A DNA stretch of 34,057 nt from Thermoflexales bacterium (GTDB lineage Bacteria; Chloroflexota; Anaerolineae; J036; Brachytrichaceae): positions 1 to 34,057 of the forward strand of contig JANWVJ010000011.1 in the NCBI GenBank assembly GCA_025056895.1. Reading direction: 5' to 3'. The notes beneath the pieces are model-generated. The model ran no database searches and was not told the origin of the DNA. It saw only the letters and a program-made list of their open reading frames with translations. Position numbers and translations under genes: made by a program. Below are positions 6,509 through 21,700 of this stretch, piece after piece; within the stretch, counting starts at the first letter, position 1; each line of letters begins with the position of its first letter.

Positions 6509-7366
6509 TCACCGATTCAGAAAGTCCGCGACAATCGTATTGAATTCCTCCGACCGCTCGCGTTGAGGCCAGTGGCCACACCCTTTCATCTCGCGCAGAA
6601 GCGCATGTGGGGTGCGACGGGCAGCTTCGCGCGCCCATGCCACAGGGACGAGGGCATCCTGATCGCCGTGCACAAATAAAGTTGGCGCGCGTAACTGGGC
6701 CAGACGAGTCAAGAAATTCGTGCGCAGACGGCCGAGCAGCACCTCCCGCCGTTGGAAATCCATGAACGCCTCACCGACACGTGGCTTGCTCAGCTCGGCA
6801 AACGCCTGATTTACAAGATCATTGGTGATACGAGAGGGATCAGCAAAGATGGGACGCAAACTGGCGCGCACCCATGTGCGGTTACGACGCAGAAGGACAT
6901 AAATCAGGCGGGACAGGAAGGGCATGCGCACGAAGAAATAGGACATGACATGTGCCGGCGCACGGCGCTGCAAGCCGTAGCTGGCCACTGGGATCAAACA
7001 CAGCACTTGCTCGGGATAATTCAGCCCAATATGGAGAGCGAGCGCGCCACCCATCGAAACACCGCAGAAGCCGGCCTGAGCGATTCCGATAGCGTCCAGG
7101 AAGTCCATCAGAAGTCGACCATAGGATTCAATGCTGTGCTCGAACTCGAATGGCCGGTCGCTGTCTCCATAGCCGGGTAGGTCTGGCACAAAGATACGAC
7201 GCGATCGCGCCAGTGCCGGCCAGGTTTGCGACCACGACAGAGATGCCGAGTCTAATCCACCTCCGTGCAACAAGACGAGCGGAGCGCCAGTTTCACCGGC
7301 TTGCACATAGTGCAGCCGCACGCCTCTGAGCGTGACGTAGGCATGTAATGCAAGAGTGTGACTCAT
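6509..7366 (-). CDS. Alpha/beta-fold hydrolase
   Basis: Cytoplasmic serine hydrolase of the alpha/beta superfamily, about 285 residues. The oxyanion region is LVLLHGGGLD, the nucleophile elbow is GVSMGG (Ser near 104), the acid is in HGDQDALVP and the catalytic His is in GCGHWPQRE. A middle helical lid is present. It most resembles meta-cleavage-product hydrolase or haloperoxidase-like members; the substrate is unknown. An alternative GTG start at 7381 overlaps the mrpG stop (GTGA), which would give translational coupling. The ATG at 7366 is used because MSHTLALHAYV is a more usual opening; neither has a clear ribosome binding site. It is the last gene of the long cation-transport transcript, and nothing in it suggests a role in transport. 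Confidence 0.85.
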   Translation of the reverse strand: MSHTLALHAYVTLRGVRLHYVQAGETGAPLVLLHGGGLDSASLSWSQTWPALARSRRIFVPDLPGYGDSDRPFEFEHSIESYGRLLMDFLDAIGIAQAGFCGVSMGGALALHIGLNYPEQVLCLIPVASYGLQRRAPAHVMSYFFVRMPFLSRLIYVLLRRNRTWVRASLRPIFADPSRITNDLVNQAFAELSKPRVGEAFMDFQRREVLLGRLRTNFLTRLAQLRAPTLFVHGDQDALVPVAWAREAARRTPHALLREMKGCGHWPQRERSEEFNTIVADFLNR

Positions 7367-7377
7367 CGGGCACGCGA

Positions 7378-7743
7378 TCACCGCACGGCGCGAGCAGAGT
7401 GCTGTTCATCGGTTACAAGCCGGTGCGCGGCCAAATCGTCGCGGCAAACACCCTTCATCGGCACGCCGGTACGCCAAGCCGCAGAGGCGATTGCATGCGC
7501 CACAACCGGTCCGGCCAGCAGCAGCAAGGCAATCAACAACAGTCCTCGGCTCCAGGCATAGGGCACGGCCAGGATGGCAGCGACCGTCAGTAACACGACG
7601 CCAAATGTGGACACCTTGCCGGCAGCATGTAGGCGCGCATACACATCAGGCAGGCGCAACAAGCCGATCATACCGATCATAGAGAAGACTGTGCCGACCA
7701 AAATCGCAAGCGCGGCAGCAGCGTACAAAAGTTCTTCGAGCAT
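7378..7743 (-). CDS. mrpG: Mrp antiporter subunit G (second set)
   Basis: Small membrane subunit of the Mrp/Mnh multisubunit Na+/H+ antiporter, 121 residues. It has three hydrophobic segments and the family signature RLPDVYARLHAAGKVSTFG, followed by a TAxxxGVPM-like element (SAAWRTGVPMKG). The frame can be extended upstream to 7842, but that would overlap most of the mrpF end. The ATG at 7743 gives the canonical N-terminus MLEELLYAAAALAILVG. It is the last Mrp subunit of the downstream complete set, with its stop touching the hydrolase gene. Confidence 0.92.
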   Translation of the reverse strand: MLEELLYAAAALAILVGTVFSMIGMIGLLRLPDVYARLHAAGKVSTFGVVLLTVAAILAVPYAWSRGLLLIALLLLAGPVVAHAIASAAWRTGVPMKGVCRDDLAAHRLVTDEQHSARAVR

Positions 7744-7759
7744 GCTAATTCTCCTGGCA

Positions 7760-8035
7760 CTAGAATATCTGCCGGCGGGCAATGTAGCGCGCCAGAGCAA
7801 TGGTGCTGATGAACGTGAGCGCTGCAAAACCCAGCGCCACATCGATGAATAGTTCGTTCTGACGGATCAACCCCATCAGCACAAACACGGCCAGCACCAG
7901 CGTGCCGATCACGTCGGCAGCCAGCAGGCGGTCGAGCACCGTTTCACCGCGCCAGACGCGCCAGACGGCCACCGAGATCAAACCGACATGAATGACCAGC
8001 GCAACAGCCAGGAGCACGCCGAACACTTCTTTCAT
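7760..8035 (-). CDS. mrpF: Mrp antiporter subunit F (second set)
   Basis: A 91-residue membrane protein with three hydrophobic segments. MrpF signatures are WRGETVLDRLLAADVIGTLV in the middle and FIDVALGFAALTFISTIAL near the end, with a basic C-terminus ARYIARRQIF. Its ATG overlaps the mrpE stop as ATGA, indicating translational coupling. The family also resembles cation/bile-acid transporter-like MnhF proteins, but context makes the assignment firm. Confidence 0.92.
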   Translation of the reverse strand: MKEVFGVLLAVALVIHVGLISVAVWRVWRGETVLDRLLAADVIGTLVLAVFVLMGLIRQNELFIDVALGFAALTFISTIALARYIARRQIF

Positions 8036-8514
8036 CGAAAAATGCCCTCCATCAAACGCCGGCGCGTGCGTTGGGCGGCTTCGGCGCTTTCAGCGCTGGC
8101 AACAACGTCCAGACAGTGGGTGTACAGGACGCCGTCCTCGCCGATTTCAACCACTTGCTCGCCGGGCGTGACGGTGATGGCATGGGCGTTGAGGGCGATG
8201 CCCAGCTCACTCTTCATCTCACTCTGGATGGCCAAAATGCCGGGGCGGATCGGCAACTTGGGATCAAGGACAATGCGCGCAACGCGAATGCCGTTGCGAA
8301 TAATGTCAACGGCCAGCCAGAGGGTATAGCGCGCCAGATTGAACAGCACCAGCGGCAAACGACGAATCGACAACAAATCGGGGGCTGGGCGCACGACCAA
8401 AGCGACCAGGACGCCGATGAGCAAGCCAAGCACAATGTTAGCCGGCTCGGCATTCTCGGTCAGCGCCAAAAACAACACCAGACAAATCAACACCAGGCGG
8501 AGATATGCCAACAT
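8032..8514 (-). CDS. mrpE: Mrp antiporter subunit E (only copy)
   Basis: A 160-residue MrpE/MnhE subunit. It has two N-terminal membrane segments, then the family block YTLWLAVDIIRNGIRVARIVL. This leads to the cytoplasmic domain with SELGIALNAHAITVTPGEQV and LYTHCLDV. GGAAGG lies shortly upstream of the ATG at 8514. It overlaps mrpF by four bases. This is the only mrpE in the window, since the upstream set has just 23 bases at the equivalent place. If both sets form complexes, either they share this subunit or one works without it. Confidence 0.93.
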   Translation of the reverse strand: MLAYLRLVLICLVLFLALTENAEPANIVLGLLIGVLVALVVRPAPDLLSIRRLPLVLFNLARYTLWLAVDIIRNGIRVARIVLDPKLPIRPGILAIQSEMKSELGIALNAHAITVTPGEQVVEIGEDGVLYTHCLDVVASAESAEAAQRTRRRLMEGIFR

Positions 8515-8562
8515 GTGCCTTCCTCCAACAGAATAAAAGAGCTAAATCAATGCGTTCAACGG

Positions 8563-10119
8563 TCACTTGAGTGTTGATTGCTCCGGCAGCAACACCGCAC
8601 GCGTGTAGTTAGCCGGCGCGCCGATCCATCCACTGACATGCTGCGACCAATCGGCCAGCGGCTGGGCCCACAAGCCGAGCACCAGACAGAGCAAGATCAA
8701 GCCGGCAGGGGCCAACAAGCTGTCGCCGCGTGGCTTGACCTTTTCCTCAGGCGATTTGGGCTGGAATGGCTCCCACCAGATCACCATCAGGGCACGGAAG
8801 ACGTATACGAATGTCAGGATGCTGGAGAAGCCGATCAGCGCCAACGGCAGCCATACGCCGAGCGAGGCGGCCATCTCGCCAGCTTGCACTGCCAGCACAC
8901 CGCTCTGAAACAGCATCAGTTTGCTGATGAAACCGTTAGTGGGCGGCATACCGGCCAGCGCCATGCCGCCCAGCAAGAACAACACGCCGCCAAGCGGCGC
9001 ATACTTGCCTACCCCTCGCACCACGCTGAAAGCAGCCGTCTTGATCGGGGCGCGGCTGGCCAAGTAGCCGCTCAGCATCAGCATGGCGCTTTTGATGAGC
9101 GCGTGGTTGAAGGTGAACAGCACAGCCGCTGCGATCGATAACGCCGCACCCCAGCCGATGCCGACGTAGATGAAACCGATTTGGGCCAGTGTGGAGTACG
9201 CGAACATGCGCTTGGCGTTGTGTGTGCCGATTGCGCCCAACCCACCGAAGACCACGCCGGCGATGCCGCTCACGATCAGCGCTCCGTTCAACCAGTCAAA
9301 TTGAGGGACGAGCAGCGTCGTCAGGCGCAGAAAGCCGTACACACCGATCTTGACAACGACCGAAGATAACATGGCCGAAACCGGCGTCGGCGAGGCCGTG
9401 TGAAAGTCGGGCTGCCAAAAATGGAAGGGCACAGCAGCACTTTTGATCATAAACGTGATGGCCAGAAAGACCACCGCAGCAGCCAACAACGGCCGGTTGG
9501 GATCGGCAGCGATGCGCTGGGCCAGATCGGCCATGTTGAGCGTGCCGTAGCTGACATACAGACTGCCGATGCCGAACAACAGGCAGAACGAGGCGAGGGT
9601 GCTGATTAGGAAGTACTTGAAAGCAGCTTCAGGGCCGTAGCGGTCATCGCTGATCGAGGTCAGAACTGCCCCCGAAATGACCACCAGCTCGATCATGACG
9701 AACAGATTGAAGATATCGCCGGTGAGCAAAGCGCCGCTCAGGCCGGCAGCCAGGGTCAGGAAAAGCGGGTAGAAGGTGTCATGATGAACGGCTTTGTCTT
9801 TTGCACCGAGAGCATACAGGAAACCGAACACGAATACCAACTGGGCCATAAAGGCGAAGGTGGACGATAGAGGATCGGCCACAAACGTGATGCCAAAAGG
9901 AGCAGGCCAAGCGCCGAGCTGAAGCACCAACGGCTGGCCAGCTTCGGCCACCTGCCACAACAGCCAGGCGCTGACCGCACACGCCGTCGCCATTGCGCCG
10001 AAAGCCCATGCAGCCTGCGCGTATGGATGGCGGCGCAAGAGCATAGCTACCGCCGCGCCGGTCAACGGAATGAGCGCCGGCAAGATGGCTAGGATCGAAT
10101 TGCTGGGTTGCTCGAACAT
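8563..10119 (-). CDS. mrpD: Mrp antiporter subunit D (second set)
   Basis: A 518-residue proton-translocating membrane subunit related to NuoL/M/N, with about 14 hydrophobic segments. The conserved TM5 glutamate is in FNLFVMIELVVISG (E144). The TM7 lysine is in FMIKSAAVPFHFWQPDFH (K226), followed by SAMLSSVVVKIGVYG. The N-terminal opening, SILAILPALIPLTGAAVAM, is typical. It is closely similar along its length to the MrpD of the upstream set (shared GTLNMADLA, FHFWQPDFHTA and NGFISKLMLFQSG blocks). It follows mrpC with a gap of about 36 bases. Confidence 0.95.
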   Translation of the reverse strand: MFEQPSNSILAILPALIPLTGAAVAMLLRRHPYAQAAWAFGAMATACAVSAWLLWQVAEAGQPLVLQLGAWPAPFGITFVADPLSSTFAFMAQLVFVFGFLYALGAKDKAVHHDTFYPLFLTLAAGLSGALLTGDIFNLFVMIELVVISGAVLTSISDDRYGPEAAFKYFLISTLASFCLLFGIGSLYVSYGTLNMADLAQRIAADPNRPLLAAAVVFLAITFMIKSAAVPFHFWQPDFHTASPTPVSAMLSSVVVKIGVYGFLRLTTLLVPQFDWLNGALIVSGIAGVVFGGLGAIGTHNAKRMFAYSTLAQIGFIYVGIGWGAALSIAAAVLFTFNHALIKSAMLMLSGYLASRAPIKTAAFSVVRGVGKYAPLGGVLFLLGGMALAGMPPTNGFISKLMLFQSGVLAVQAGEMAASLGVWLPLALIGFSSILTFVYVFRALMVIWWEPFQPKSPEEKVKPRGDSLLAPAGLILLCLVLGLWAQPLADWSQHVSGWIGAPANYTRAVLLPEQSTLK

Positions 10120-10155
10120 GACTTGTACCTGAATAGGGTGATATGGCGTCGGACG

Positions 10156-10488
10156 CTAATGGCTCAGACCGCGCACCTCATCACTGTCGCCGGTACGATA
10201 GCGCGAAGCGATCACGTATAGCAAGGCCAGCATCATCGAGAAGCCGCCCATGCTGATGACGATGGCCGTCAAAATCAAAGCTTGTGGCAACGCATCGCTC
10301 CGCTGGCCGACCGCTTTGGCATAGGCTTCAACCACGCCGTTGTATGCGCCAACCGACAAAAGGAACAGGTTGACCGCATTTGAAAGGATCACCAGGCCGA
10401 TGGCGATACGAATGACATTGCGGCGCAATAACTGGTACAGAGCGATGCCGAATAGCACGCCGATGGCTATAGCTCGCAGTAAGTCCAT
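10156..10488 (-). CDS. mrpC: Mrp antiporter subunit C (second set)
   Basis: A 110-residue NuoK-like subunit with three membrane segments. Marks are LYQLLRRNVIRIAIGLVILS, SNAVNLFLLSVGAYNG and SDALPQALILTAIVIS. The frame is open upstream to 10563, but only the ATG at 10488 gives the family N-terminus MDLLRAIAIGVLFG. It sits two bases after the mrpA stop (TAA-TC-ATG). The end, SDEVRGLSH, is nearly the same as in the other MrpC. Confidence 0.93.
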   Translation of the reverse strand: MDLLRAIAIGVLFGIALYQLLRRNVIRIAIGLVILSNAVNLFLLSVGAYNGVVEAYAKAVGQRSDALPQALILTAIVISMGGFSMMLALLYVIASRYRTGDSDEVRGLSH

Positions 10489-10490
10489 GA

Positions 10491-13400
10491 TTATTCTGCC
10501 TCTCCTTCTGGATGGCCCAACGCATCGATGATGAACAGGCTGGCGCCGAAAACCGCCAAGCAAATCGCCAGCTCGAACAGGAAAGACGTGCTGAAGTAAA
10601 CGCCCTCCGGCAACGGTAACCGCAACACAGCCCCAAAGTCAACCGGTGAGAAGAAAGCGCCGCCGAGCAGCATGGGGGCAGAGGCGCCGATCACGGCAAT
10701 CAACAAGCCCAGGCCGATTAATAAGCCGGGCCGTAAACCGCGCAAGCGGCGGCGCACACCGGCAAATCCAAACACGACATACCAAAAGCCAACGGCTAAG
10801 CTGAGTGTGACACCGGCGGTGAAGCCATCGCCCGGCTCGTGGTGGCCGTGGATGATCTGCACAGCAGCCAGCACAATCGCCAGCGGCATGGCCAGATAGG
10901 CCAGTGCATGAATAAAGGGCGAGGCGCGCTTGCCGTCAATGCCATACAAGGCGGGGGATACACGAAACAGTGCCTGCGAGGGCGCCGGCGCTTCTTCTTC
11001 GGGCTGGGCGCGCAAGGCCTCGCGGCGCGTCATGGCATAGCGCAACAGCGTAAACACACCCACGCCGGCCACGCTGAACACGCTGATCTCGATTAGCGTA
11101 TCGAAGCCGCGAAAATCGACCACCACCGCGCCGACGATGTCATCGGCGCCGGTGAGCGGCTTAGCGTTTTGCTCGAAGAAAGGCGTCACAACCGACTCAC
11201 GCGGACGAGACGCAAACGCATACAAACACAACGTGGTCACCACTGCGCCGCCGATCACCGCCAGAATCGTGTTGCGGAGCATACAGGCGCGATCGCGGTG
11301 ATTGAGCGCCTCGGCGCGCGCCAGTTGTGCAATGGGCAAATGGGACAGCGCCAGCACGAGGATCACAGTGGACAACAAGTCCACGACGACCTGCACCAGC
11401 GCCACATCCGGCGATGGCTCCAGAGCGATCAACACGGCCACGGCTAGGCCCGATGCGCTCAACGCCAAAATGGCCAGAAAATCTCGCCGGATGACAACAG
11501 ACACCAGCGCGGCAGCCACGGCCAAAATGAGACTGAAGGCGCGCAGGAAGCCCAGCGGATCGAGCAGATCGTCGAGCGGCGCAGCCGCTAAACGCGCGAA
11601 CGGCGGCGCACTCAAGAGTTGAGACAAGTTGCCGAACAGCGCCAGCAAGCCGAACAAAGCCATTAAGATGACTGTGAGATAGATGCGAATGCGTCCGCCC
11701 TGCGTGCGTGTGGCCCAACCGGCCAAGCGATCGATGGTATTCAACGTGCGCTCATAGAGGGCATTCATAGACAACGCCGGGCCGGCCACAGAGCGAATCG
11801 GGCTGCGCAGACGAAATACCACTACGCCCAGGCCGATCGCGAGGGCGCTTAGGAGAAGCGGTACATTCAGGCCGTGAAACAGGTCTAACGAGACTTTGAC
11901 CTTAACCCCATACGCCGCCGAAGCTGCAGAAGCCAACAAGTCGGTGAACACCTGGGGCTGAAAGACGGTGATCACTAGCGACAAGGCTGCCAACGCCGCC
12001 GGCGCGATCAGCATGCCCGCCGGCGGGTCCTGAGCAAGGAGCGTCTCCTTGAGGTGCGGACGGGCCGGCTTAGAGCGGTCAATGGTCTCAACATCTTCAG
12101 GGTCGTCACGGCCTTCGCCGGTGAGCGGCAAATCGACAACCGTTTTGAAAAAGCCGGCGCCGGGCGGGGTCACAAATGTGTCGAGCGCCAACGTGCCGGC
12201 CTGAGCGAGGATAAATGCCCCGCTCAGCACGGTGAGAGCGGGCAGGATCACCCGCATCATCGCCGGCAAGACCTCTTCGATCTCCGCTGCCAGTAAGGCT
12301 TCTTTGGCCAAAAAGCCGAACAGGGGCGGCAAGCCGGCCATCGATAACGCAGCGATACTGCACACGACAAACGTCAACGGCATGGCGCGCCAGATGCGAC
12401 CCAGCCGCCGCAAGTCGCGGGTGCCGGTTGTGTGATCGACAATCCCGACGATCATAAACAGCGCGCCTTTGTATAAGGCATGAGCCAGAACCCCGATGGT
12501 TAGAGCCTTAAAGGCCTCCGGCGCCTCTTCACCGATCAACATGACGAGCACGCCGAGCTGGCTGATAGTCGAATAGGCCAACACGGCTTTGAGATCAACT
12601 TGCCGCAAGCCGAGAATGGCGCCTGTCAACATGGTCGTCGCGCCGGCGACAGCCAACAGCCAGAACCACAATTCGGTATTGCCCAGCGCGGGATGCAGGC
12701 GGGCCAAAATGTACACGCCGGCCTTGACCATCGTCGCGGAGTGCAAATAGGCCGAAGCCGGAGTAGGTGCGCTCATTGCAGTGGGCAACCAAAAATGGAA
12801 AGGCGCCTGAGCGCTTTTGGTGAAGGCGCCGAATGCAATCAACGCCAACAACACCGGGTACCAAGGGCTGGCGCGCAACACATCGCGACTGCTTAGGATG
12901 GTCGCCCAGTCCGAGCCGCCGCCAATAGCTGCAACGAATAAGAGACCGGCCAGTAGGGCGATACCACCCGCGCCGGTGACAAACAATGCCTTGAACGCTC
13001 CTTTGCGCGCTTCTGCATCCTTGGTCTTGTAAGCGATCAACAGAAAGGATGTGACACTAGTGCCTTCCCAAAACACAAACAGCGTGATCACATCGCCGGC
13101 CAGCACCAGCCCCAGCATAGACGCCATGAACAACAGGATGTACAGGAAAAAGCGCGCATCCGAAGTTGTCGATCCCTGAGATGCGAGGGATGCATGGGCA
13201 TCGCCGGCAGCCGGCGCATGACTTAAAGCAGGGTCAAAATAATAGCCGGCATAGATCAACACCAGCGCGCCGATTCCGGTGACGATGAGACCGAATAGAA
13301 CGCTGAGGCCGTCGAGATAGAGGCTGGCATTCAAACCGAGCGCCGGCAGCCAGGCAAATTGCCACGTGATCACGTGGCCTTCAAACAGGTGGGGCAATTG

Positions 13401-13556
13401 AGCGGCGAGATAGATGAACGCAACCAACGGCGCACCGGACAACAACCAGCCCAACGCCCGGCTCGACAGCCTGGTGGTAGCAGGGAGCACTGTTGGCAAC
13501 ACAGCAGCCAGCGCGCCTACTGTACACGCAAGGAGCGGAAATGCCAGCGTAAGCAT
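10491..13556 (-). CDS. mrpA: Mrp antiporter subunit A fused to MrpB (second set)
   Basis: A giant membrane protein of about 1,020 residues. The N-terminal two thirds is the NuoL-like antiporter domain, with LYLDGLSVLFG, the TM5 glutamate in FVFWEGTSVTSF (about residue 164), the TM7 lysine in FGAFTKSAQAPFHFWLP (about 247) and another lysine in HSATMVKAGVY (about 278). A middle NuoJ-like/MrpA C-domain follows (VVDLLSTVILVLAL, then DFRGFDTLIEISVFSVAGVG). The last 150 residues are an MrpB domain (IHGHHEPGDGFTAGVTLS, then VYFSTSFLFELAI). No separate mrpB exists, so this is an A-B fusion. A TTG at 13565 directly after the mrpG stop could add three residues; the ATG at 13556 is used. Neither has a clear Shine-Dalgarno. 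Confidence 0.93.
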   Translation of the reverse strand: MLTLAFPLLACTVGALAAVLPTVLPATTRLSSRALGWLLSGAPLVAFIYLAAQLPHLFEGHVITWQFAWLPALGLNASLYLDGLSVLFGLIVTGIGALVLIYAGYYFDPALSHAPAAGDAHASLASQGSTTSDARFFLYILLFMASMLGLVLAGDVITLFVFWEGTSVTSFLLIAYKTKDAEARKGAFKALFVTGAGGIALLAGLLFVAAIGGGSDWATILSSRDVLRASPWYPVLLALIAFGAFTKSAQAPFHFWLPTAMSAPTPASAYLHSATMVKAGVYILARLHPALGNTELWFWLLAVAGATTMLTGAILGLRQVDLKAVLAYSTISQLGVLVMLIGEEAPEAFKALTIGVLAHALYKGALFMIVGIVDHTTGTRDLRRLGRIWRAMPLTFVVCSIAALSMAGLPPLFGFLAKEALLAAEIEEVLPAMMRVILPALTVLSGAFILAQAGTLALDTFVTPPGAGFFKTVVDLPLTGEGRDDPEDVETIDRSKPARPHLKETLLAQDPPAGMLIAPAALAALSLVITVFQPQVFTDLLASAASAAYGVKVKVSLDLFHGLNVPLLLSALAIGLGVVVFRLRSPIRSVAGPALSMNALYERTLNTIDRLAGWATRTQGGRIRIYLTVILMALFGLLALFGNLSQLLSAPPFARLAAAPLDDLLDPLGFLRAFSLILAVAAALVSVVIRRDFLAILALSASGLAVAVLIALEPSPDVALVQVVVDLLSTVILVLALSHLPIAQLARAEALNHRDRACMLRNTILAVIGGAVVTTLCLYAFASRPRESVVTPFFEQNAKPLTGADDIVGAVVVDFRGFDTLIEISVFSVAGVGVFTLLRYAMTRREALRAQPEEEAPAPSQALFRVSPALYGIDGKRASPFIHALAYLAMPLAIVLAAVQIIHGHHEPGDGFTAGVTLSLAVGFWYVVFGFAGVRRRLRGLRPGLLIGLGLLIAVIGASAPMLLGGAFFSPVDFGAVLRLPLPEGVYFSTSFLFELAICLAVFGASLFIIDALGHPEGEAE

Positions 13557-13565
13557 GAAGGCCAA

Positions 13566-13955
13566 CTATACAGGCAGGTCGGAAGAGGGATCAGAGGGTT
13601 GAGCAAATGGCAAAGATCGACCACGCCGGCGGGCCAGATCGTCGCGCATGGCATTTGTCATTGGTACGCCGGTGCGATAGGCCGCTGAAGCCAGCGCATG
13701 AGAGACCGCCGGGCCAGCAATCACCAACAGCGCAATCAACACCAGCGCCTTGCCCAAGCCCAATGAGCCAACCGCAACGGCGGCCAGAGCAAGGAGAGCT
13801 GCACCAAAGACACTCACCTTGCCGGCTGCGTGCAGGCGCGTATAAACATCCGGCAGGCGAACAAAGCCCAAGACGCCAATCAGAGAGAAGAAGCTGCCAA
13901 CCACAATGGCGAGGAGCGCAATGACTTGCAAGACAGGATCGAGCGTTGCTTCCAT
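13566..13955 (-). CDS. mrpG: Mrp antiporter subunit G (first set)
   Basis: A 129-residue MrpG with three hydrophobic segments and the signature FVRLPDVYTRLHAAGKVSVFG, followed by ASAAYRTGVPMTNAM. It lies directly upstream of the second mrpA, whose first possible start codon follows this stop without a gap. It is slightly longer at the C-terminus (SDPSSDLPV) than the second copy and clearly paralogous to it. Confidence 0.92.
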   Translation of the reverse strand: MEATLDPVLQVIALLAIVVGSFFSLIGVLGFVRLPDVYTRLHAAGKVSVFGAALLALAAVAVGSLGLGKALVLIALLVIAGPAVSHALASAAYRTGVPMTNAMRDDLARRRGRSLPFAQPSDPSSDLPV

Positions 13956-13965
13956 ATCACCATTC

Positions 13966-14241
13966 CTAAAACATGCGCTGGTCGGCCAGGTACTTTGCCA
14001 GCGCCAGCGTGCCGATAAAGCTTAAAGCGGCCACAATCAAGGCAACGTCCATGTAGATGTCTTGGCCGGTGAACATGGCAATCAGCACCAACACGCACAA
14101 AATCAGGACGCTAGCCAGCTCCACACCGAGCAAGCGATCAACCGGACTTTGGCCGCGCACAACGCGCCACAAAGGAATCAGGATCAAGAGCACATGCCCG
14201 ATCAGGGCAAGTGCGATTGCGTTGTTTAAGATATTTTCCAT
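13966..14241 (-). CDS. mrpF: Mrp antiporter subunit F (first set)
   Basis: A 91-residue MrpF, the same length as the second copy, with WRVVRGQSPVDRLLGVELAS and YMDVALIVAALSFIGTLALA, ending AKYLADQRMF. It follows mrpD with only 23 bases between stop and start, where an mrpE gene would normally lie. Spacing to mrpG is 10 bases. Confidence 0.92.
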   Translation of the reverse strand: MENILNNAIALALIGHVLLILIPLWRVVRGQSPVDRLLGVELASVLILCVLVLIAMFTGQDIYMDVALIVAALSFIGTLALAKYLADQRMF

Positions 14242-14264
14242 GGCTCACCCGCTTATACTCTTCG

Positions 14265-15755
14265 TCAGCCGCCCAACACAACGCGCACATACTGTTCCGG
14301 CACGCTGAGCCAGGCGACGGTGTCATACGCCAAGCGCAGCAACGGTTCGGCCCACAGACCCAGCGCCAGGCTAAGGGCAATCAAGATGGCCGGCGCAATT
14401 AATCGATCGCCATAGGGTTTGGTCTTGGCGCCGGCCGGCATGGGAACCCACCAGATGCGTTGAAAGGCGCGCATCACGTACACGAGAGTGACGATACCGG
14501 CCAGGCCGATCACCGCCAGCGGCAAGTAGGCTTGGGACTCAACACCGCTTTGAAACAACATCAACTTGCCGATGAAGCCGTTCAAGGGCGGAATGCCGGC
14601 CAACCCCATGCCGCCGAGCAAGAACAACACACCGGCCAGGGGCATCTTCTTGCCGACTCCGGTGATCACGTCAAAAGCGGCGGTCTTGACCGGAGCGCGG
14701 CTGGCAACGCTGCCGGCCAGCATGAGCATGGCAGCTTTCAACAGGCTGTGATTAAACGCATACACAATCGCGGCTGCCAGCGCCAAGGGTGTGCCCCAGC
14801 CGATGGCAACGAGAATGAAGCCGAGCTGGCCCAAGGTGGAATAGGCCAACATGCGTTTGGCATCATAGGTTCCCACGGCGCCCAACCCTCCGAACCACAC
14901 ACCCACCGCACCGGCAACCACAAGCACTGGGCGGATCAACTCGGCCTGTCCGGGAAAGAGCAACGTGGTCATACGGAAAAACCCATAAATGCCGAGCTTA
15001 ACCACAACCGAAGACAGCACGGCGTGAACGGGGGTTGGCGCAGCGGTGTGAAAATCAGGTTGCCAGAAGTGAAAGGGCATGACGGCGCCTTTGACCATGA
15101 AGAAGACCATCAAGAAGGCCATCGCCGGCAACACCAAGGGGGGAGACGGATCGGCTGCAATTCGGCGGGCTAGATCGGCCATGTTGAGTGTGCCGTAGGA
15201 GACATATAGGCTGCCACACGCCAGCAACAGCGCAATCGAAGCCACCAAGCTGATATAGAAATATTTGTAAGCAGCCTCGGCGCCAAAACGATCGTCAGAC
15301 ATGGCGGTGAGGGCTGCGCCGGCGAACACCAACAACTCGGCGAAGACGAACAGATTAAACAAGTCGCCGGTCAGCATCGCGCCGGTCAGTCCGGTTGCTA
15401 ACAAGAGGAAGAGCGGATAGAACATCGGATATTGTGCACACTGGTCGCGGCAACCCAGCGCATACAAGAACCCACCCGCCAGAACGAGCTGGCACATCAC
15501 CGCCATCAGCGCAGACAAGACATCGGCCACCAATGAGATGCCGAACGGCGCCGGCCAGCCACCCAACTGGAAAACAAGGGGCCTACCCTGCCCCCACACA
15601 TCAGCCAGTAGCAGAACGGCAAACACCAGCGAGGTGAGCATCGAGCCGAACGACCAGGCAGCCTGCACTTCATGGCGGCGACGCAGGGCAATAGCTATCA
15701 CCGCTGCGGTTAAGGGCACCAGGATCGGCAATACAACCAGGAACTCGTTTGTCAT
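14265..15755 (-). CDS. mrpD: Mrp antiporter subunit D (first set)
   Basis: A 496-residue NuoL/M/N-like subunit with about 14 membrane segments. The TM5 glutamate is E140 in LFNLFVFAELLVFAG and the TM7 lysine is K222 in FFMVKGAVMPFHFWQP, so both key ion-path residues are intact. The copy is not a dead duplicate by these tests. Its start follows the mrpC stop by two bases (TAA-CG-ATG). The C-terminus differs from the second copy (VPEQYVRVVLGG), as expected for an old duplication. Confidence 0.95.
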   Translation of the reverse strand: MTNEFLVVLPILVPLTAAVIAIALRRRHEVQAAWSFGSMLTSLVFAVLLLADVWGQGRPLVFQLGGWPAPFGISLVADVLSALMAVMCQLVLAGGFLYALGCRDQCAQYPMFYPLFLLLATGLTGAMLTGDLFNLFVFAELLVFAGAALTAMSDDRFGAEAAYKYFYISLVASIALLLACGSLYVSYGTLNMADLARRIAADPSPPLVLPAMAFLMVFFMVKGAVMPFHFWQPDFHTAAPTPVHAVLSSVVVKLGIYGFFRMTTLLFPGQAELIRPVLVVAGAVGVWFGGLGAVGTYDAKRMLAYSTLGQLGFILVAIGWGTPLALAAAIVYAFNHSLLKAAMLMLAGSVASRAPVKTAAFDVITGVGKKMPLAGVLFLLGGMGLAGIPPLNGFIGKLMLFQSGVESQAYLPLAVIGLAGIVTLVYVMRAFQRIWWVPMPAGAKTKPYGDRLIAPAILIALSLALGLWAEPLLRLAYDTVAWLSVPEQYVRVVLGG

Positions 15756-15757
15756 CG

Positions 15758-16105
15758 TTAGTGTCTCAGCCCCTTGACTTCATCGGAATCGCTGGTTTTA
15801 TAGCGAAGCGACAAGACATACACCAAAGCCAGAACAACGGCGAAAGCGCCCATGCCGATCACAATGGCTGTCAGGATCAACGCCTGGGGCAGCGCATCGC
15901 TGGGTTGGCGGGCCGTCTGGCCGGCCAGATTGGCATACGCGGCCACCTCACCGCGATAGGCGCCGCTGGCCAACAAAAACAAATTAATCGCGTTTGAGAC
16001 AATCGCTACACCCATGGCCGAGCGAATGAGATTGCGCCGCAATAACTGAAAGACACCGATGGCAAATAGCGCACTGATCGCCAGCGCGGTGAACAGTTCG
16101 ATCAT
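15758..16105 (-). CDS. mrpC: Mrp antiporter subunit C (first set)
   Basis: A 115-residue NuoK-like subunit with three membrane segments: VFQLLRRNLIRSAMGVAIVS, SNAINLFLLASGAYRGEV and SDALPQALILTAIVIG. The ATG overlaps the mrpA stop as ATGA, so the pair is translationally coupled. The C-terminus SDEVKGLRH matches the second copy's SDEVRGLSH. Confidence 0.93.
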   Translation of the reverse strand: MIELFTALAISALFAIGVFQLLRRNLIRSAMGVAIVSNAINLFLLASGAYRGEVAAYANLAGQTARQPSDALPQALILTAIVIGMGAFAVVLALVYVLSLRYKTSDSDEVKGLRH

Positions 16106-19095
16106 GTTTTGGTCTCCTCAGGCAAGGTGACTACGCCCTGTTCTCTCAGGGCGGCTATTTCGCTCATTTGTTGTTCGGTCTCGCGGTCGGTGTCACGCGG
16201 ATGGCCAAGCGTGTCGAGCATCAGCACTGCGCTGCCCACCACCGTCAGGGCAATTGCCAGCTCATACAGCGTGGCTGTGCTGAAATAGACGCCGGCCGGC
16301 AGCCAGCGACTAACGCCGATTAACTTGCCGAAATCAACCGGCGAGAAGAAAGTGCCGTTGATGAGGGCAGCAAGGGTGGCGGACAACAAGGCCAGACCCA
16401 GGCCGGCAGCGATCAAGGCAGCCGGGCGCAGCCAGGGCAAGCGACACTTAGTCTCCTCGTAACCATAGACGACATACCAGGTTGCCACAGCCAAGCTGAC
16501 GATCACGCCGGCTGTGAACCCGTCGCCGGGTCGATCATGGCCGAGCAAGATATGCGAGGCAGCCAGCACAAACGAGAACGGCAGAATCAATCGCGCGACC
16601 AAGCGCACCAGGGCCGACGAACGGGGGTTGCCGATCCCGCGAAAGGGGAGCATGGTTGGATCAGGCTGTGGCGCCGGCTCATCGCGGTCGCCTGCTTTGC
16701 GCGAGGCATAGCGCAACAAGGTGTAAACCGACAAGCCGGCGGCGGCGAAGACAGCAATTTCAACCAGTGTGTCGAAGCCACGAAAATCGATCACGATTGC
16801 GCCCACGATGTCATTTGCAGCGGTGAGGGGCTTGGCATTTTGTTCGAAGAAGGGCGTGATTTGGGACTCTCGCGGGCGCGAGAGAAGCGCCGTGGAGACG
16901 ATTGCAAACATGACCGCGCCGCTGCCCAACGCAATCAGCACATCACGCAGCAAGCCGGGGCGTGACTGGCGGTAGGTGAACTCGGCAGCGCGCGCGCGTT
17001 GCTCGCGCGGCAGGCGGGTGAGCACCAGCACCAGCACGACCAGAGTCAGTGTTTCCACTACCACTTGCACCAAGGCAATATCGGGGGCGGGTTCCAAAAT
17101 CATCAGCACGGCAATGCTCAGGCCGGAAACACCCAACGCAAGAATGGCGAACAGATCGCTGCGCAAGAAGACGCTAACCAGCGCAGCGAGGGTGACGACT
17201 ACCAAGGCAATAATCCGCAGTAGAGACTGAGCATCCGGCAGTAAGGTGACGGAAAGTGCCAAAGGCGGCAAGGCCAGCCGGCCTATGCCGATCAACATAG
17301 CGCCTAGGCTGATCAACATGATTGCCAGATACAATCGCAGGCGACCGCTTTGAACGCGCGTGACCAACCAGGCCATACCATCGATCAGCCGCAACGCTCC
17401 CTCGTAGAGCACACCGAGGCTGAGACGGCCGGCAATGTGATCGAGCGCAGGACGAACGCGCTGACGCACGGCCAACAAGGCGACGCCTAGACTGACGGCC
17501 ACGATACTCAGCAGCAGTGGGACATTGATGCCGGTCCACAATGCCAACGACACCTTGACTTTATCGCCCCAGGCGGCTGTGGCAGCAGCAGCGAGCAAGG
17601 TGGCCAGTCCCTCCGGTTCGGGCAACACGCCAACTGCCAACGAGGCCAAAGCCGGTATGGCCGGCGCGAGCCACATCGGCCAGGGGGCTTCATGCGGGTG
17701 AAGATCAGAGCGAGACTGGCCCAGAAAGCCATCGAGCACGACCAAGCCGGCCTGGGCCAAAACCAACGCGCCGGCAATCACCGCCGCAGCCGGGAAAATC
17801 ACTTCAACGATCGGCGGCACGGCAGGATGGGTCGCAGTAGCCAGCAACGTCTCTTTGGCCAAAAAGCCGAAGAGAGGGGGCAAACCGGCCATCGACAAGC
17901 CGGCTATCAGCGCAACGGCAAAGGTAAAGGGCATGGCGCGCCGTAATCCGCCTAGCTCGCGTAGGTCGCGCGTGCCGGCTTCGTGATCGATGATGCCGGT
18001 GACAAGAAAGAGCGCGCTTTTGTATAGGGCATGAGCCAGGATGCTCACCACCAAGGCCTTGAAAGCGATCTCGGTGTCTTGGCCGATCAACATCACCAAC
18101 ACGCCCAACTGGCTGACGGTGGAGTAGGCCAACAGCGCCTTGAGATCATGCTGCTTGAAGCCGACAAACGCCCCGATCAACATGGTCGCTCCGCCGATCA
18201 GGCTGAACAGCCAGAACCACAGATCGGTTTGACCGAGGGCAGGATTCACTCGGGCCAACAGATACACACCCGCTTTGACCATGGTGGCCGAGTGCAAATA
18301 CGCCGAAGCGGGGGCGGGAGCACTCATTGCGCCGGGCAACCAGAAGTGAGCCGGCGCCTGCGCACTCTTGGTCAGAGCGCCCAGCGCAATCAACGCCAGC
18401 ATGACGGGATACAGTTCACTGGCGCGCAGAAGGTCGCCGCTGCGCAGAATCACGTCAAACTGTGTGCTGCCGCTGAGAGCAGCCACGAAGACGAGACCGG
18501 CTAACAACGCTACACCACCTCCGCCGGTGATGAATAAGGCACGAAACGCGCCGCGTCGCGCTGCCTCGTCCTTGCTCTTGTAAGCCACCAGAAGAAAAGA
18601 GGTGATGCTGGTGCCTTCCCAGAAGACAAAGAGGGTGATGACATCGCCTGCCAGCACCAAGCCCAGCATCGACATCATGAACAGCAGGATGTAGAAGAAA
18701 AAGCGTGCGTCGGAATGGGCGGAGAAATCAGACGAGTCGCCTTGGGCAGGATGGGCCGAGTTGGCTTTGAAATAGTATCCGGCATAGGTCACCACTAGTA
18801 CGCCGATGCCGCTGACCAACAGCCCAAACAGCACGCTTAGTCCATCGAGACGCAGCGTGGCTTGCACCCCGAGCGTTGGCATCCAGTCGAGCGACCAGAT
18901 CAGGGTCTGGCCGGCCAGGACGTTTGGCGATTCGACCAACAGGAGAACAAAAGCGACCAAGGGCGCAATCGCCAACAACCAGCCAAGCAGGGGCGTGGAA
19001 ACGCGGCGACCAACCGGCAAGACCGTCAACAGGCCGGCAGCAAGCGCGCCAATGGCGCAGGCAATTAAGGGCAGAACGATTGATTGACTATACAT
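16102..19095 (-). CDS. mrpA: Mrp antiporter subunit A fused to MrpB (first set)
   Basis: About 997 residues, with the same layout as the second copy. The NuoL-like domain carries RLDGLSVLFG, the TM5 glutamate in FVFWEGTSITSF (about residue 160), the TM7 lysine in GALTKSAQAPAHFWLPG (about 243) and KAGVY (about 274). The MrpA C-domain follows with DFRGFDTLVEIAVFAAAG. The C-terminal MrpB domain carries LLGHDRPGDGFTAGVIVSLA and VYFSTATLYELAIAL. The frame opens at a TTG at 19122, but the ATG at 19095 has GGAG about seven bases upstream and is chosen. A long cytoplasmic tail ends in TLPEETKT. The 65-base gap to the preceding antiporter gene holds an imperfect hairpin (CCAGT...ACTGG). Confidence 0.94.
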   Translation of the reverse strand: MYSQSIVLPLIACAIGALAAGLLTVLPVGRRVSTPLLGWLLAIAPLVAFVLLLVESPNVLAGQTLIWSLDWMPTLGVQATLRLDGLSVLFGLLVSGIGVLVVTYAGYYFKANSAHPAQGDSSDFSAHSDARFFFYILLFMMSMLGLVLAGDVITLFVFWEGTSITSFLLVAYKSKDEAARRGAFRALFITGGGGVALLAGLVFVAALSGSTQFDVILRSGDLLRASELYPVMLALIALGALTKSAQAPAHFWLPGAMSAPAPASAYLHSATMVKAGVYLLARVNPALGQTDLWFWLFSLIGGATMLIGAFVGFKQHDLKALLAYSTVSQLGVLVMLIGQDTEIAFKALVVSILAHALYKSALFLVTGIIDHEAGTRDLRELGGLRRAMPFTFAVALIAGLSMAGLPPLFGFLAKETLLATATHPAVPPIVEVIFPAAAVIAGALVLAQAGLVVLDGFLGQSRSDLHPHEAPWPMWLAPAIPALASLAVGVLPEPEGLATLLAAAATAAWGDKVKVSLALWTGINVPLLLSIVAVSLGVALLAVRQRVRPALDHIAGRLSLGVLYEGALRLIDGMAWLVTRVQSGRLRLYLAIMLISLGAMLIGIGRLALPPLALSVTLLPDAQSLLRIIALVVVTLAALVSVFLRSDLFAILALGVSGLSIAVLMILEPAPDIALVQVVVETLTLVVLVLVLTRLPREQRARAAEFTYRQSRPGLLRDVLIALGSGAVMFAIVSTALLSRPRESQITPFFEQNAKPLTAANDIVGAIVIDFRGFDTLVEIAVFAAAGLSVYTLLRYASRKAGDRDEPAPQPDPTMLPFRGIGNPRSSALVRLVARLILPFSFVLAASHILLGHDRPGDGFTAGVIVSLAVATWYVVYGYEETKCRLPWLRPAALIAAGLGLALLSATLAALINGTFFSPVDFGKLIGVSRWLPAGVYFSTATLYELAIALTVVGSAVLMLDTLGHPRDTDRETEQQMSEIAALREQGVVTLPEETKT

Positions 19096-19160
19096 GCGAA
19101 CTCCAACCAGTTTGTTCAACAACGACTGGTCTGCTCCACGGCCTGGGGGAGAGAACTGAC

Positions 19161-20249
19161 CTATGCGCGTCGCAATGTGCGCAGATGTCTCAACACGGTC
19201 ACTGCTAGGGTCAGGGCAGTGAGCGGTAGCGCAAAGAATAGCATGGCGCTGCTGTACATGGGCAACAGCGCGTGCTCAGTTGCATCGAAAATCAAGTATA
19301 GCGTGTAGGCCACGTAATAGCTGAGAAAGACCAACCCTTCCCAGCGGGCAATCGTGTAGCCGGTGAAGAAGATCGGCAAACAAGCAAATGCAACAACTAA
19401 CATCACCGGCATATCAAACGCAAGCAGCGCAGGCTCAACCGAAACGCCATTCGGAGCAACGATTGCGGTTAAGCCAAGCACGGACAACAGGTTGAAGATG
19501 TTGCTGCCAACCACGTTTCCCACTGCGATGTCGCGCTCGCCGCGCACGCTGGCCATCACCGACGTTGCTACTTCCGGGAGCGACGTGCCTCCGGCGATGA
19601 TGGTGAGACCGATGACAACCTCATCCACGCCTAGCGCACGGGCGACCACTACCGCGCCATCCACCAGCCAGCGCGAGCCGATGACCAGCATCACCAAGCC
19701 CACTACAACAAAGACGAGATTGAGCGCAATGCCGCGCAAGCCACCGGCAGGAGGCCGGAATTCGTACTCGTATTCCTCGCGCACAGCAGCATTCGTCTCT
19801 TTACGGCTTTGAATGATCAAGAAGGTAGTGTAAGCAATCAGCCCGCCAAACAAGATCACGCCTTCAAGCCGGCTCACACTCTCATCCAGGGCAAACAAAA
19901 AGGTCAACACCGATACAGCTATCATCAATGGCACGTCCAGGCGCACCAACTGCTGAGAGACGATGAGCGGCGCGACAACCGCCGACAACCCCAGAATCAG
20001 TAGGACATTGAAGATGTTGCTGCCGACGACGTTGCCCATGGCGATGTCGGGCTGACCGGCAAGTGCGGAGAACACACTCACGGCCAGTTCTGGGCTGCTG
20101 GTGCCAAAGGCAACGACGGTCAGACCGATAACCAGAGGAGAAATACCGATAGCGGCTGCAAGGCGAGAAGCGCCACGCACCAGCGCCTCGGCGCCGGCGA
20201 TCAATCCAACCAAACCCAGCACAAACAAGAAGAGAGTCGTCCAGTCCAT
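19161..20249 (-). CDS. CaCA-family Na+/Ca2+-type (or Mn2+) antiporter, second of tandem pair
   Basis: A 362-residue inner-membrane cation antiporter of the CaCA superfamily (YrbG/NCX type). Both alpha repeats are clear. Alpha-1 has GTSSPELAVS (T50, S51, E54) and GNVVGSNIFN (S77, N81). Alpha-2 has GGTSLPEVATS (E226) and GNVVGSNIFN (N253). By position these match the ion-binding residues of the archaeal NCX_Mj structure, except that its fourth central residue, an Asp as I recall it, is Asn here. The central loop (RKETNAAVREEYEYEF) is acidic and cytoplasmic. The protein should use Na+ entry to expel a divalent cation. The Mn2+ riboswitch at the head of the transcript makes Mn2+ a serious candidate besides Ca2+. 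It starts 21 bases after its paralogue. Confidence 0.92.
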   Translation of the reverse strand: MDWTTLFLFVLGLVGLIAGAEALVRGASRLAAAIGISPLVIGLTVVAFGTSSPELAVSVFSALAGQPDIAMGNVVGSNIFNVLLILGLSAVVAPLIVSQQLVRLDVPLMIAVSVLTFLFALDESVSRLEGVILFGGLIAYTTFLIIQSRKETNAAVREEYEYEFRPPAGGLRGIALNLVFVVVGLVMLVIGSRWLVDGAVVVARALGVDEVVIGLTIIAGGTSLPEVATSVMASVRGERDIAVGNVVGSNIFNLLSVLGLTAIVAPNGVSVEPALLAFDMPVMLVVAFACLPIFFTGYTIARWEGLVFLSYYVAYTLYLIFDATEHALLPMYSSAMLFFALPLTALTLAVTVLRHLRTLRRA

Positions 20250-20270
20250 GTGTTTGCTCGATCGTTGTGT

Positions 20271-21461
20271 TCAACTATATGATTTATCTTGCTCAGCACT
20301 ACCGGACGGAGCTGGATGAGGCGTTGTCTGCGCCAATTGATCAGCCCCCTCAGCTCTGTCGGATACACTTCGGGTGTCGCGAATGGCGCGCCGCGCACTG
20401 CGCCAGGTCACTACCGCCAGCGTGATAACCGTTAAGGGAGCGGCGAAATACAAAATGACATCAGATAGCACACGCAACGAGTCACTGCGCATGGCATCCA
20501 AAATCAGATAGGCCGTGTAAGCGGCGTAGTATCCCAGAAACAGCGCGCCTTCCCAACGGGCGATGCGATAGCCGGTGAAAAAGATAGGTAGACACGCCAC
20601 CATCGTCACGACCATCACCGGCAAATCGAACTGCAGAACGGATTGAGGCACCGCGATGCCTTGCGGCGCAACGATGCCGGCTGCGCCGAGTACTGCCAAC
20701 AAGTTGAACAGGTTACTGCCGACGATATTGCCGACGGCAATGTCGCGCTCGCCGCGCAGGCCGGCAATCACCGTTGTGACAATTTCGGGCAGGGAAGTGC
20801 CGATTGAGACCACCGTTAAGCCGATAACCACTTTCCCGACATGTAGAGCGACAGCCAAATTCACCGCTGCCTCTACTAGCCAAGCCGAGCCGGCGGCGAG
20901 CGCAATCAGGCCGGCCACGATCAGTAATGTATTGACCAGAAGGCTGCGCCAGGTCAACCGACCACGTCCGGCGTACTCCTGAGCATATTCCGCTTCAACT
21001 TGGCGGCTTTCACGTCTGCTTTGGATGACGGCAACGACCACATAGCCAACAATGCCGGCAAACAACACGACACCCTCAAGTCGCATGATCAGACGATCCA
21101 TTGCAAACACACATACGACTAACCCAACAGCGATCATGAGCGGAACATCTACGCGCACCATCCGCTGCGCCACAACCAGCGGCGAAATGAGCGACGACAA
21201 ACCCAAAATAAGCAACACGTTAAGGATGCAACTACCGACCACGTTACCGAGTGCAATGTCTGCTTGACCGCTTAAGGCGGCCTCAACACTGACGGCCAGT
21301 TCTGGTGAACTGGTGCCGAAAGCCACCACAGTCAGACCGATCACCAGCGGCGATACACCCAGCACAGCAGCCAAACGTGAAGCGCCGCGAACCAGGGACT
21401 CTCCACCAGCGATCAACAGCGCCAGGCCGGCCGCAAACTGCACGAAGATCATCGGCCCCAT
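20271..21461 (-). CDS. CaCA-family Na+/Ca2+-type (or Mn2+) antiporter, first of tandem pair
   Basis: A 396-residue paralogue of the next gene, with identical spacing of the two alpha repeats: GTSSPELAVS (T50, S51, E54), GNVVGSCILN (S77, N81), GTSLPEIVTT (E226) and GNIVGSNLFN (N253). It differs from the sister protein in having Cys instead of Asn at 78 in alpha-1, next to the ion-binding Ser, and in a longer charged C-terminal tail (from about residue 360). It is the first gene behind the yybP-ykoY riboswitch, with AAGGAG eight bases before the ATG at 21461. Expected role: sodium-driven export of a divalent cation. The riboswitch argues for Mn2+; the transported ion itself cannot be read from sequence. 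Confidence 0.92.
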   Translation of the reverse strand: MGPMIFVQFAAGLALLIAGGESLVRGASRLAAVLGVSPLVIGLTVVAFGTSSPELAVSVEAALSGQADIALGNVVGSCILNVLLILGLSSLISPLVVAQRMVRVDVPLMIAVGLVVCVFAMDRLIMRLEGVVLFAGIVGYVVVAVIQSRRESRQVEAEYAQEYAGRGRLTWRSLLVNTLLIVAGLIALAAGSAWLVEAAVNLAVALHVGKVVIGLTVVSIGTSLPEIVTTVIAGLRGERDIAVGNIVGSNLFNLLAVLGAAGIVAPQGIAVPQSVLQFDLPVMVVTMVACLPIFFTGYRIARWEGALFLGYYAAYTAYLILDAMRSDSLRVLSDVILYFAAPLTVITLAVVTWRSARRAIRDTRSVSDRAEGADQLAQTTPHPAPSGSAEQDKSYS

Positions 21462-21534
21462 TTGAATTGCTCCTTACGCCGCAAACTCAGTGTGCCGCGG
21501 CGCTATCGCAACGATAGATCGCCGACCTGGGAGT

Positions 21535-21569
21535 AAAAAAAGACATCGCAAGCCAGGTGGCTTGCGATG
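21535..21569 (-). terminator. Riboswitch-controlled intrinsic terminator
   Basis: On the minus strand an 11-base-pair perfect stem, CATCGCAAGCC paired with GGCTTGCGATG around a four-base ACCT loop, is followed directly by TCTTTTTTT. It lies between the aptamer and the first antiporter gene. The left arm contains CGCAAGCC, which is also able to pair with the aptamer's 5' strand, so termination and aptamer closure compete. Confidence 0.93.
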
Positions 21570-21670
21570 GTCTTGCCGATCATTGCTGGTGTACCAACCG
21601 GACGCAGATTGCGCCGTACTGACGATTGGCAGCCCTGCAGTGCGCAGGCGGCTACTCCCCAACGCAAGCC
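21559..21670 (-). promoter_or_regulatory. yybP-ykoY (Mn2+) riboswitch aptamer
   Basis: The minus-strand leader of the antiporter gene carries the yybP-ykoY hallmark GGGGAGTAGC (21660-21651). It also has a CGTCAGTACGG segment typical of the middle of the motif and the closing GGCAAGACC (21577-21569). The outer helix P1 is visible as GGCTTGCG (21670-21663) pairing over eight bases with CGCAAGCC (21566-21559). That second strand is also the left arm of the terminator, so ligand-stabilised P1 should prevent termination, making an ON switch. The family (RF00080) is known to sense Mn2+ and to control metal exporters. The motif match is by eye, but the sequence and architecture agree well. Confidence 0.9.
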
Positions 21671-21671
21671 A

Positions 21672-21700
21672 TATATAACAAAACGGATTGCGGCTGTCAA
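21672..21700 (-). promoter_or_regulatory. Candidate promoter of the riboswitch-antiporter transcript
   Basis: TTGACA (21700-21695) and TATATA (21677-21672) with exactly 17 bases between them lie just upstream of the riboswitch. The -35 box is perfect. One tension remains: a start seven bases after the -10 box would fall inside the 5' strand of P1 (21670-21663) and shorten that helix. Either initiation is at the near end of the range, or P1 is shorter than the maximal pairing, or another promoter is used. Confidence 0.55.

Follow-up and report, generated by a model that had tools for sequence, protein, structure and literature searches.

Riboswitches of the yybP-ykoY class (RF00080) lie before genes for TerC, P-type ATPases, MntP and GDT1, with TerC and P-type ATPases being usual genes behind an Mn2+ riboswitch. 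In Bordetella pertussis, the CaCA protein BP3410 is under a yybP-ykoY riboswitch and exports Mn, and Ca2+ did not induce its gene (PMC8546581). Sodium/proton pumps of the Mrp type have been described separately: group 2 Mrp (mrpA'CDEFG) in Pseudomonas and Vibrio, double Mrp clusters in Sinorhizobium and Staphylococcus, and an Mrp linked to divalent cations in Thermomicrobium roseum (PMC5703873). Here we analyze 34,057 nucleotides of DNA from a Thermoflexales bacterium of the phylum Chloroflexota (JANWVJ010000011.1, assembly GCA_025056895.1; the whole stretch is called the window below), in which a predicted Mn2+ riboswitch precedes two CaCA antiporter genes and two Mrp sets. We consider it reasonably probable that this array is an Mn-inducible cation-export operon, with Mn2+ relieving termination in the leader and so inducing a Na+-coupled exporter and Mrp together.

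Judged by the published description, the locus resembles BP3410, with its Mn2+-induced yybP-ykoY leader before a CaCA antiporter; it differs in that BP3410 is one CaCA gene, with no mention of Mrp found in the accessible part of the study (PMC8546581), whereas the window has two CaCA genes and two Mrp sets. It shares aptamer elements and terminator logic with the riboswitches before TerC, P-type ATPase, MntP and GDT1 genes, but its unit would be about 15 kb long with sodium/proton pumps, and its leader scores below the Rfam threshold. The fused A' layout is that of the group 2 Mrp of Pseudomonas and Vibrio, and several sets per genome also occur in Sinorhizobium and Staphylococcus; unlike these, the window sets follow directly one after the other behind the predicted Mn riboswitch and CaCA genes, and the first has no mrpE. 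The T. roseum Mrp belongs to group 1, and the portion of the source available reports no riboswitch or CaCA link (PMC5703873). In the literature searched, with most subscription papers outside its reach, we found no account of units that join riboswitch, CaCA and Mrp, of such units arising independently in two classes, or of Mrp tandems whose first set lacks mrpE. Each part, and the pairing of riboswitch and CaCA, is already known; it is the link to Mrp and the repeated assembly that are undescribed in that literature. An earlier reading made from the sequence alone (the sequence-only reading) knew of no described operon with the full combination, which agrees with our search for the triad.

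Leader RNA and terminator

The best match of RF00080 in the whole genome (E 0.0013) lies at 21521-21672 of the window, with 20.9 bits against a gathering score of 45 and an E value of 0.0033 over 2 kb. Because the gathering score is not reached, we call the leader "yybP-ykoY-type". This cut-off is strict: among 14 control genomes the model gave a signal in nine and passed in two, and other leaders of the phylum, some of them before TerC, likewise fall under it. Since RF00080 at its gathering score gave nothing, a clade model, R1, was built from 11 leaders. R1 gives the window leader 82.1 bits, the window being one of its 11 building sequences, and the same leader precedes CaCA genes in ten relatives. 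In the window aptamer, L1 is UUGGGGAGUAGCC (21662-21650), L3 is CGUCAGUACGG (21624-21614), and the conserved 3' end is GGCAAGACCA. The features that define the class are present, namely the GGGGAGUAG loop, the GUCA element of L3 and the 3' GCRAGACC, arranged P1-P2-P3(-P4), and the RF00080 alignment places the same elements. Across the 11 aligned leaders UGGGGAGUAGCC, UCGUCARUACGG and GGCRAGACCA are invariant, and compensatory changes occur at 14 of 30 pairs. A larger alignment of 74 leaders has pairing in 94% of cells (75% after shuffling) and scores 0.476 for covariation, against 0.174 when shuffled and 0.06-0.13 with partners slid; as the alignment was fitted to the model these counts lean towards structure, although the margin is large. 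A chance origin of the structure is ruled out by the shuffled and slid controls, and the aligned sequences confirm that the leader is a structured RNA.

When searched with R1, 79 of 396 genomes in the class and 70 of 400 in the phylum yielded leaders. Elsewhere in the phylum the leader precedes TerC and P-type ATPase genes, and a second copy in the window's own genome lies directly before a P-type ATPase (L083, G000:C33:17507-17616). Further members of the class (L128, L134, L135, L132, L121) carry this leader ahead of membrane proteins without a usual link to Mn: an M50 peptidase that has CBS domains and a neutral zinc metallopeptidase (PF04298), in some cases with a P-type ATPase after them.

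Downstream, the terminator stem AAGAC-C-AUCGCAAGCC / GGCUUGCGAU-GUCUU, followed by a U run, takes in the aptamer's conserved 3' end; no terminator-like site in the scan was stronger. A 5' leader strand, GGCUUGCG, can pair instead with CGCAAGCC of the terminator 5' arm, a complementarity seen in 2 of 2000 shuffles. Relatives keep the overlap of aptamer and terminator with different sequences. As far as sequence can tell, this overlap is the layout of an Mn2+ on-switch. Upstream, a strict consensus promoter scan did not report the candidate TTGACA-17-TATATA; relatives carry TTGACA and then GATATAA at the same position. Because this candidate puts the predicted start near 21665, the outer part of an 8-pair helix may be untranscribed, with the conserved inner part transcribed.

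CaCA antiporters and Mrp sets

Both antiporters exceed the NCBIfam TIGR00367 cut-off of 179.65 (249.8 and 293.6 bits) and have the two PF01699 domains and the alpha-repeat GTSxPE and GSNxxN motifs of the CaCA superfamily. CaCA1 is a homologue of NCX_Mj with the ion-site residues kept, and the cation-site residues, at what we take to be the NCX_Mj positions, are kept in both proteins, which fits Na+ coupling. No TerC, GDT1 or MntP gene was found in the window's metagenome-assembled genome (MAG); this leaves the CaCA proteins and the P-type ATPase as candidates for Mn export. By annotation and by their ion-site residues the CaCA proteins are Na+/Ca2+ exchangers, and they could carry Ca2+ only, with the leader guarding against Ca2+ or a general divalent load. 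We regard this as quite improbable: the leader class is Mn-specific where tested, the second leader copy precedes a P-type ATPase, a genome of another class (G570, below) pairs the locus with TerC, and in B. pertussis BP3410 exports Mn and is not induced by Ca2+ (PMC8546581).

Pfam and NCBIfam show MrpA fused to MbhD, MbhE and MnhB domains in both Mrp sets, which is the group 2 layout. Measured against the full subunit list A(B), C, D, E, F, G, set 2 is complete (A'-C-D-E-F-G) and set 1 (A'-C-D-F-G) lacks mrpE, with 23 bases between D and F; the single MrpE of the whole MAG (about 87% complete) is that of set 2. MrpA and MrpD of both sets align to solved Mrp chains, and the conserved Glu and Lys segments are present. 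The missing subunit is notable because MrpE forms most of the Mrp dimer interface (PMC7419157). Since MrpE was reported to be dispensable for transport in B. subtilis (PMC5703873), set 1 may still act like an Mrp pump. The two Mrp complexes of the sequence-only reading thus stand as two sets, but not as equivalent ones.

On the minus strand of the window, genes for IF-3, L20 and a SpoU-type methyltransferase are followed by a promoter-like site, the leader with its overlapping terminator, the two CaCA genes, the two Mrp sets and an alpha/beta hydrolase gene (Table 1). The gene order, families and tight minus-strand spacing claimed from sequence were borne out by Pfam, NCBIfam and the coordinates. 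Past the leader, coding frames are separated by at most 48 bases if the listed starts are used and by slightly more with later starts; the sequence-only reading gave about 65 bases. The sequence-only reading had also singled out the boundary between the antiporter pair and mrpA as the place where a separate promoter with a strong terminator would split the unit. In the scans no sigma-70-like site inside the array passed on the minus strand, and internal terminator-like sites were at chance level (30 found, 24.8 +/- 5.4 expected from shuffles). In many relatives the hydrolase and a SIS-domain protein (5332-6429 in the window) come after the Mrp genes.

Table 1. Features of the leader-CaCA-Mrp array, in minus-strand order
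Feature	Position	Strand	Evidence or remark
Candidate promoter TTGACA-17-TATATA	21672..21700	-	Immediately upstream of leader; read directly
Predicted yybP-ykoY-type Mn2+ riboswitch aptamer	21561..21670	-	RF00080 (sub-threshold), clade model R1, covariation
Intrinsic terminator, 5' arm including aptamer 3' end	21535..21574	-	11 pairs and U run; folds mutually exclusive
CaCA1, Na+/Ca2+-exchanger-type antiporter, predicted Mn2+ (or Ca2+) exporter	20271..21461	-	PF01699, TIGR00367
CaCA2, second antiporter	19161..20249	-	PF01699, TIGR00367; copy kept across family
mrpA' set 1, fused A-MbhD-MbhE-MnhB	16102..19122	-	
mrpC set 1	15758..16105	-	PF00420
mrpD set 1	14265..15755	-	
mrpF set 1	13966..14241	-	PF04066; no mrpE before it
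mrpG set 1	13566..13955	-	PF03334
mrpA' set 2	10491..13565	-	
mrpC set 2	10156..10563	-	PF00420; true start probably near 10488, homology from residue 26
mrpD set 2	8563..10119	-	
mrpE set 2	8032..8514	-	PF01899; sole mrpE found in MAG
mrpF set 2	7760..8035	-	PF04066
mrpG set 2	7378..7842	-	PF03334; true start probably further inside
Alpha/beta hydrolase	6509..7381	-	PF00561; overlaps mrpG; adjoins operon in several relatives

Recurrence of the arrangement in two classes

The sequence-only reading had proposed a genome survey for riboswitch-CaCA-Mrp neighbourhoods. Such neighbourhoods recur in 11 genomes of the window's family, in seven of f71, a family belonging to a different class within the phylum, and in one Chloroflexaceae MAG. 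Within the window's family, the order of leader, one or two CaCA genes, an Mrp set without E and an Mrp set with E is kept in several genera, and leader, CaCA and Mrp are intact in G000, G001, G004, G008, G011, G013, G020, G021, G023, G025 and G027 (the loci of G001, G008 and G025 are cut by contig ends, and G011 has one Mrp set only). In f71 the arrangement occurs in G703, G725, G612, G721, G406, G598 and G570, with MrpA and MrpB separate as in the group 1 layout. It is also found in the named Chloroflexaceae MAG Prado088 (L187), which the tree places amid the CaCA genes of f71, and from this placement the phylum is taken to be Chloroflexota; G630 has leader and CaCA with no Mrp nearby. Mrp lies directly behind 19 of the 20 riboswitch-CaCA units found, in two classes and with different Mrp types. 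In L187 a UPF0114 protein (PF03350, unknown function; 2004-2507) is encoded between CaCA and mrpA, and a similar gap is present in f71 genomes.

Two f71 genomes, G598 and G570, also carry two Mrp sets, the first without and the second with MrpE. In the MrpD tree the tandem pairs of the window's family and those of G598 and G570 fall in separate, strongly supported groups; therefore the tandem duplications and the absence of the upstream MrpE arose independently. Most CaCA proteins of the two families fall in separate clades as well, an exception being the window CaCA1, which groups with the CaCA of G703 (97/85) and whose gene may have moved between classes. A single origin of the whole locus, considered as an alternative, is not favoured by these trees. 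The first CaCA of the window's genus is not orthologous to the first CaCA of genus g7 (L043, L047), and it seems that the exporter nearest the promoter was acquired or exchanged on separate occasions.

The leader-CaCA-Mrp unit of G570 sits back-to-back with a TerC gene that has a leader of its own; one intergenic region there (L285, 2303-3200) holds two Mn-type leaders, which read into TerC and into CaCA-Mrp, respectively. An adjacent TerC is likewise present in G598, G721, G605, G442 and G472, and in the last three the leader motif was found on the TerC side only. In a broader set of 80 public CaCA loci, about seven to nine lie no more than 10 kb from Mrp genes, a raw and uncorrected count in which some matches are short or near 30% identity. 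These loci include those of Polaromonas, Dechloromonas and an Acidimicrobiales MAG, with differing gene orders. A riboswitch before CaCA, sought in the same 80 loci, was found in L187 alone and in none outside the phylum.

The recurrence bears on whether the riboswitch controls the CaCA pair only, with Mrp a separately expressed neighbour and the tight spacing a product of ordinary genome compaction. CaCA-Mrp pairs do persist without leaders, and gaps of up to 48 bases could hold weak internal promoters. However, the array has no internal minus-strand promoter-like site and no excess of internal terminators, Mrp follows nearly every riboswitch-CaCA unit, and a second class has the triad too, with another Mrp type and a duplication that arose independently; we hold this explanation to be unlikely.

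Proposed mechanism and its meaning

The reading we favour, an Mn-inducible export operon, builds on RNA structure, terminator overlap, gene families and conserved, repeated synteny, all of which are present in the sequence; Mn2+ as the ligand and Mn2+ export by a riboswitch-controlled CaCA protein would follow by precedent. At low Mn2+, most transcripts would end at the leader terminator. When Mn2+ rises, it would bind the aptamer, with a stronger effect when the pH is alkaline, as in the yybP-ykoY RNAs of E. coli, stabilizing the closing helix and occupying the terminator 5' arm. Polymerase would then read into CaCA1 and CaCA2 and presumably on into the Mrp genes. The CaCA proteins would expel Mn2+, perhaps Ca2+ too, probably in exchange for Na+, and the Mrp pumps would expel that Na+ for H+, if they run in this direction, restoring the Na+ gradient and lowering cytoplasmic pH.

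Several observations weigh against this reading. RF00080 has no match at its gathering score in the window or in 11 related loci, and no residue signature of Mn versus Ca was found at the ion sites when riboswitch-linked and other CaCA proteins were compared. G002, of the same genus, has CaCA2 and both Mrp sets (L008/L034) with no CaCA1 and no leader, and in genus g2 and G046 a CaCA gene stands leaderless with one complete Mrp set. In G016 (L009), G017 (L014) and G026 (L005) the leaders are decayed, and in G017 and G026 Mrp set 1 is also missing. The leaderless CaCA-Mrp loci and decayed leaders together mean that Mn control is not essential to the pairing of CaCA and Mrp. Covariation, terminator overlap and repeated synteny in two classes lend support to what the sequence-only reading proposed on the Mn2+ riboswitch, on its action as an on-switch and on the link of CaCA to Mrp, but universal riboswitch control does not hold. 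The sequence upstream of the G002 locus resembles the end of CaCA1, which suggests that a deletion joined that operon to another promoter. In the decayed leaders of L005, L014 and L009, the promoter and L3 fragments persist and the GGGGAGUAG loop is gone.

Two further explanations give Mrp a different role. In E. coli, Mn2+ and alkaline pH jointly gate yybP-ykoY RNAs (PMC9603457), and this combination is the condition where Mrp pumps matter. The locus could be an Mn and alkaline-pH stress operon, in which CaCA removes Mn2+, Mrp brings H+ in for cytoplasmic pH, and any effect on the Na+ gradient is secondary. Mn stress makes the cytoplasm of E. coli more alkaline, and at alkaline pH the mntP leader binds Mn2+ 17- to 22-fold more tightly (PMC9603457); Mrp, moreover, is best known for alkaline pH homeostasis (PMC5703873). 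This explanation deserves some weight, though limited, as it leaves unexplained why CaCA, rather than TerC or a P-type ATPase, was repeatedly joined to Mrp, and CaCA-Mrp pairs also exist without a riboswitch. Alternatively, one or both Mrp sets may exchange Ca2+ or Mn2+ for H+, making CaCA and Mrp parallel exporters. We take T. roseum to be a member of the same phylum. Its Mrp carries out Ca2+/H+ rather than Na+/H+ exchange (PMC5703873). That Mrp, however, is of group 1 and those of the window are of group 2, and we found no Mn2+ transport by Mrp in the literature searched, so that parallel export appears improbable.

Within the favoured reading of an Mn-inducible export operon, the asymmetry of the Mrp sets admits a more specific and rather doubtful proposal: set 1, having lost MrpE, may assemble with set 2 through the single shared MrpE, giving an asymmetric double Mrp pump that powers Mn export and was built independently in two classes.

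We found no account of what energizes CaCA proteins that export Mn, and no roles have been assigned to the individual members of tandem Mrp sets. With sensor, exporter and possible power pump linked more than once, both questions become directly testable. Our comparison of sequences suggests that these bacteria export excess Mn together with the sodium pumps that could power it, and that Mn detoxification can be encoded as a whole energy circuit of sensor, exporter and ion-gradient supply, rather than as a lone exporter.

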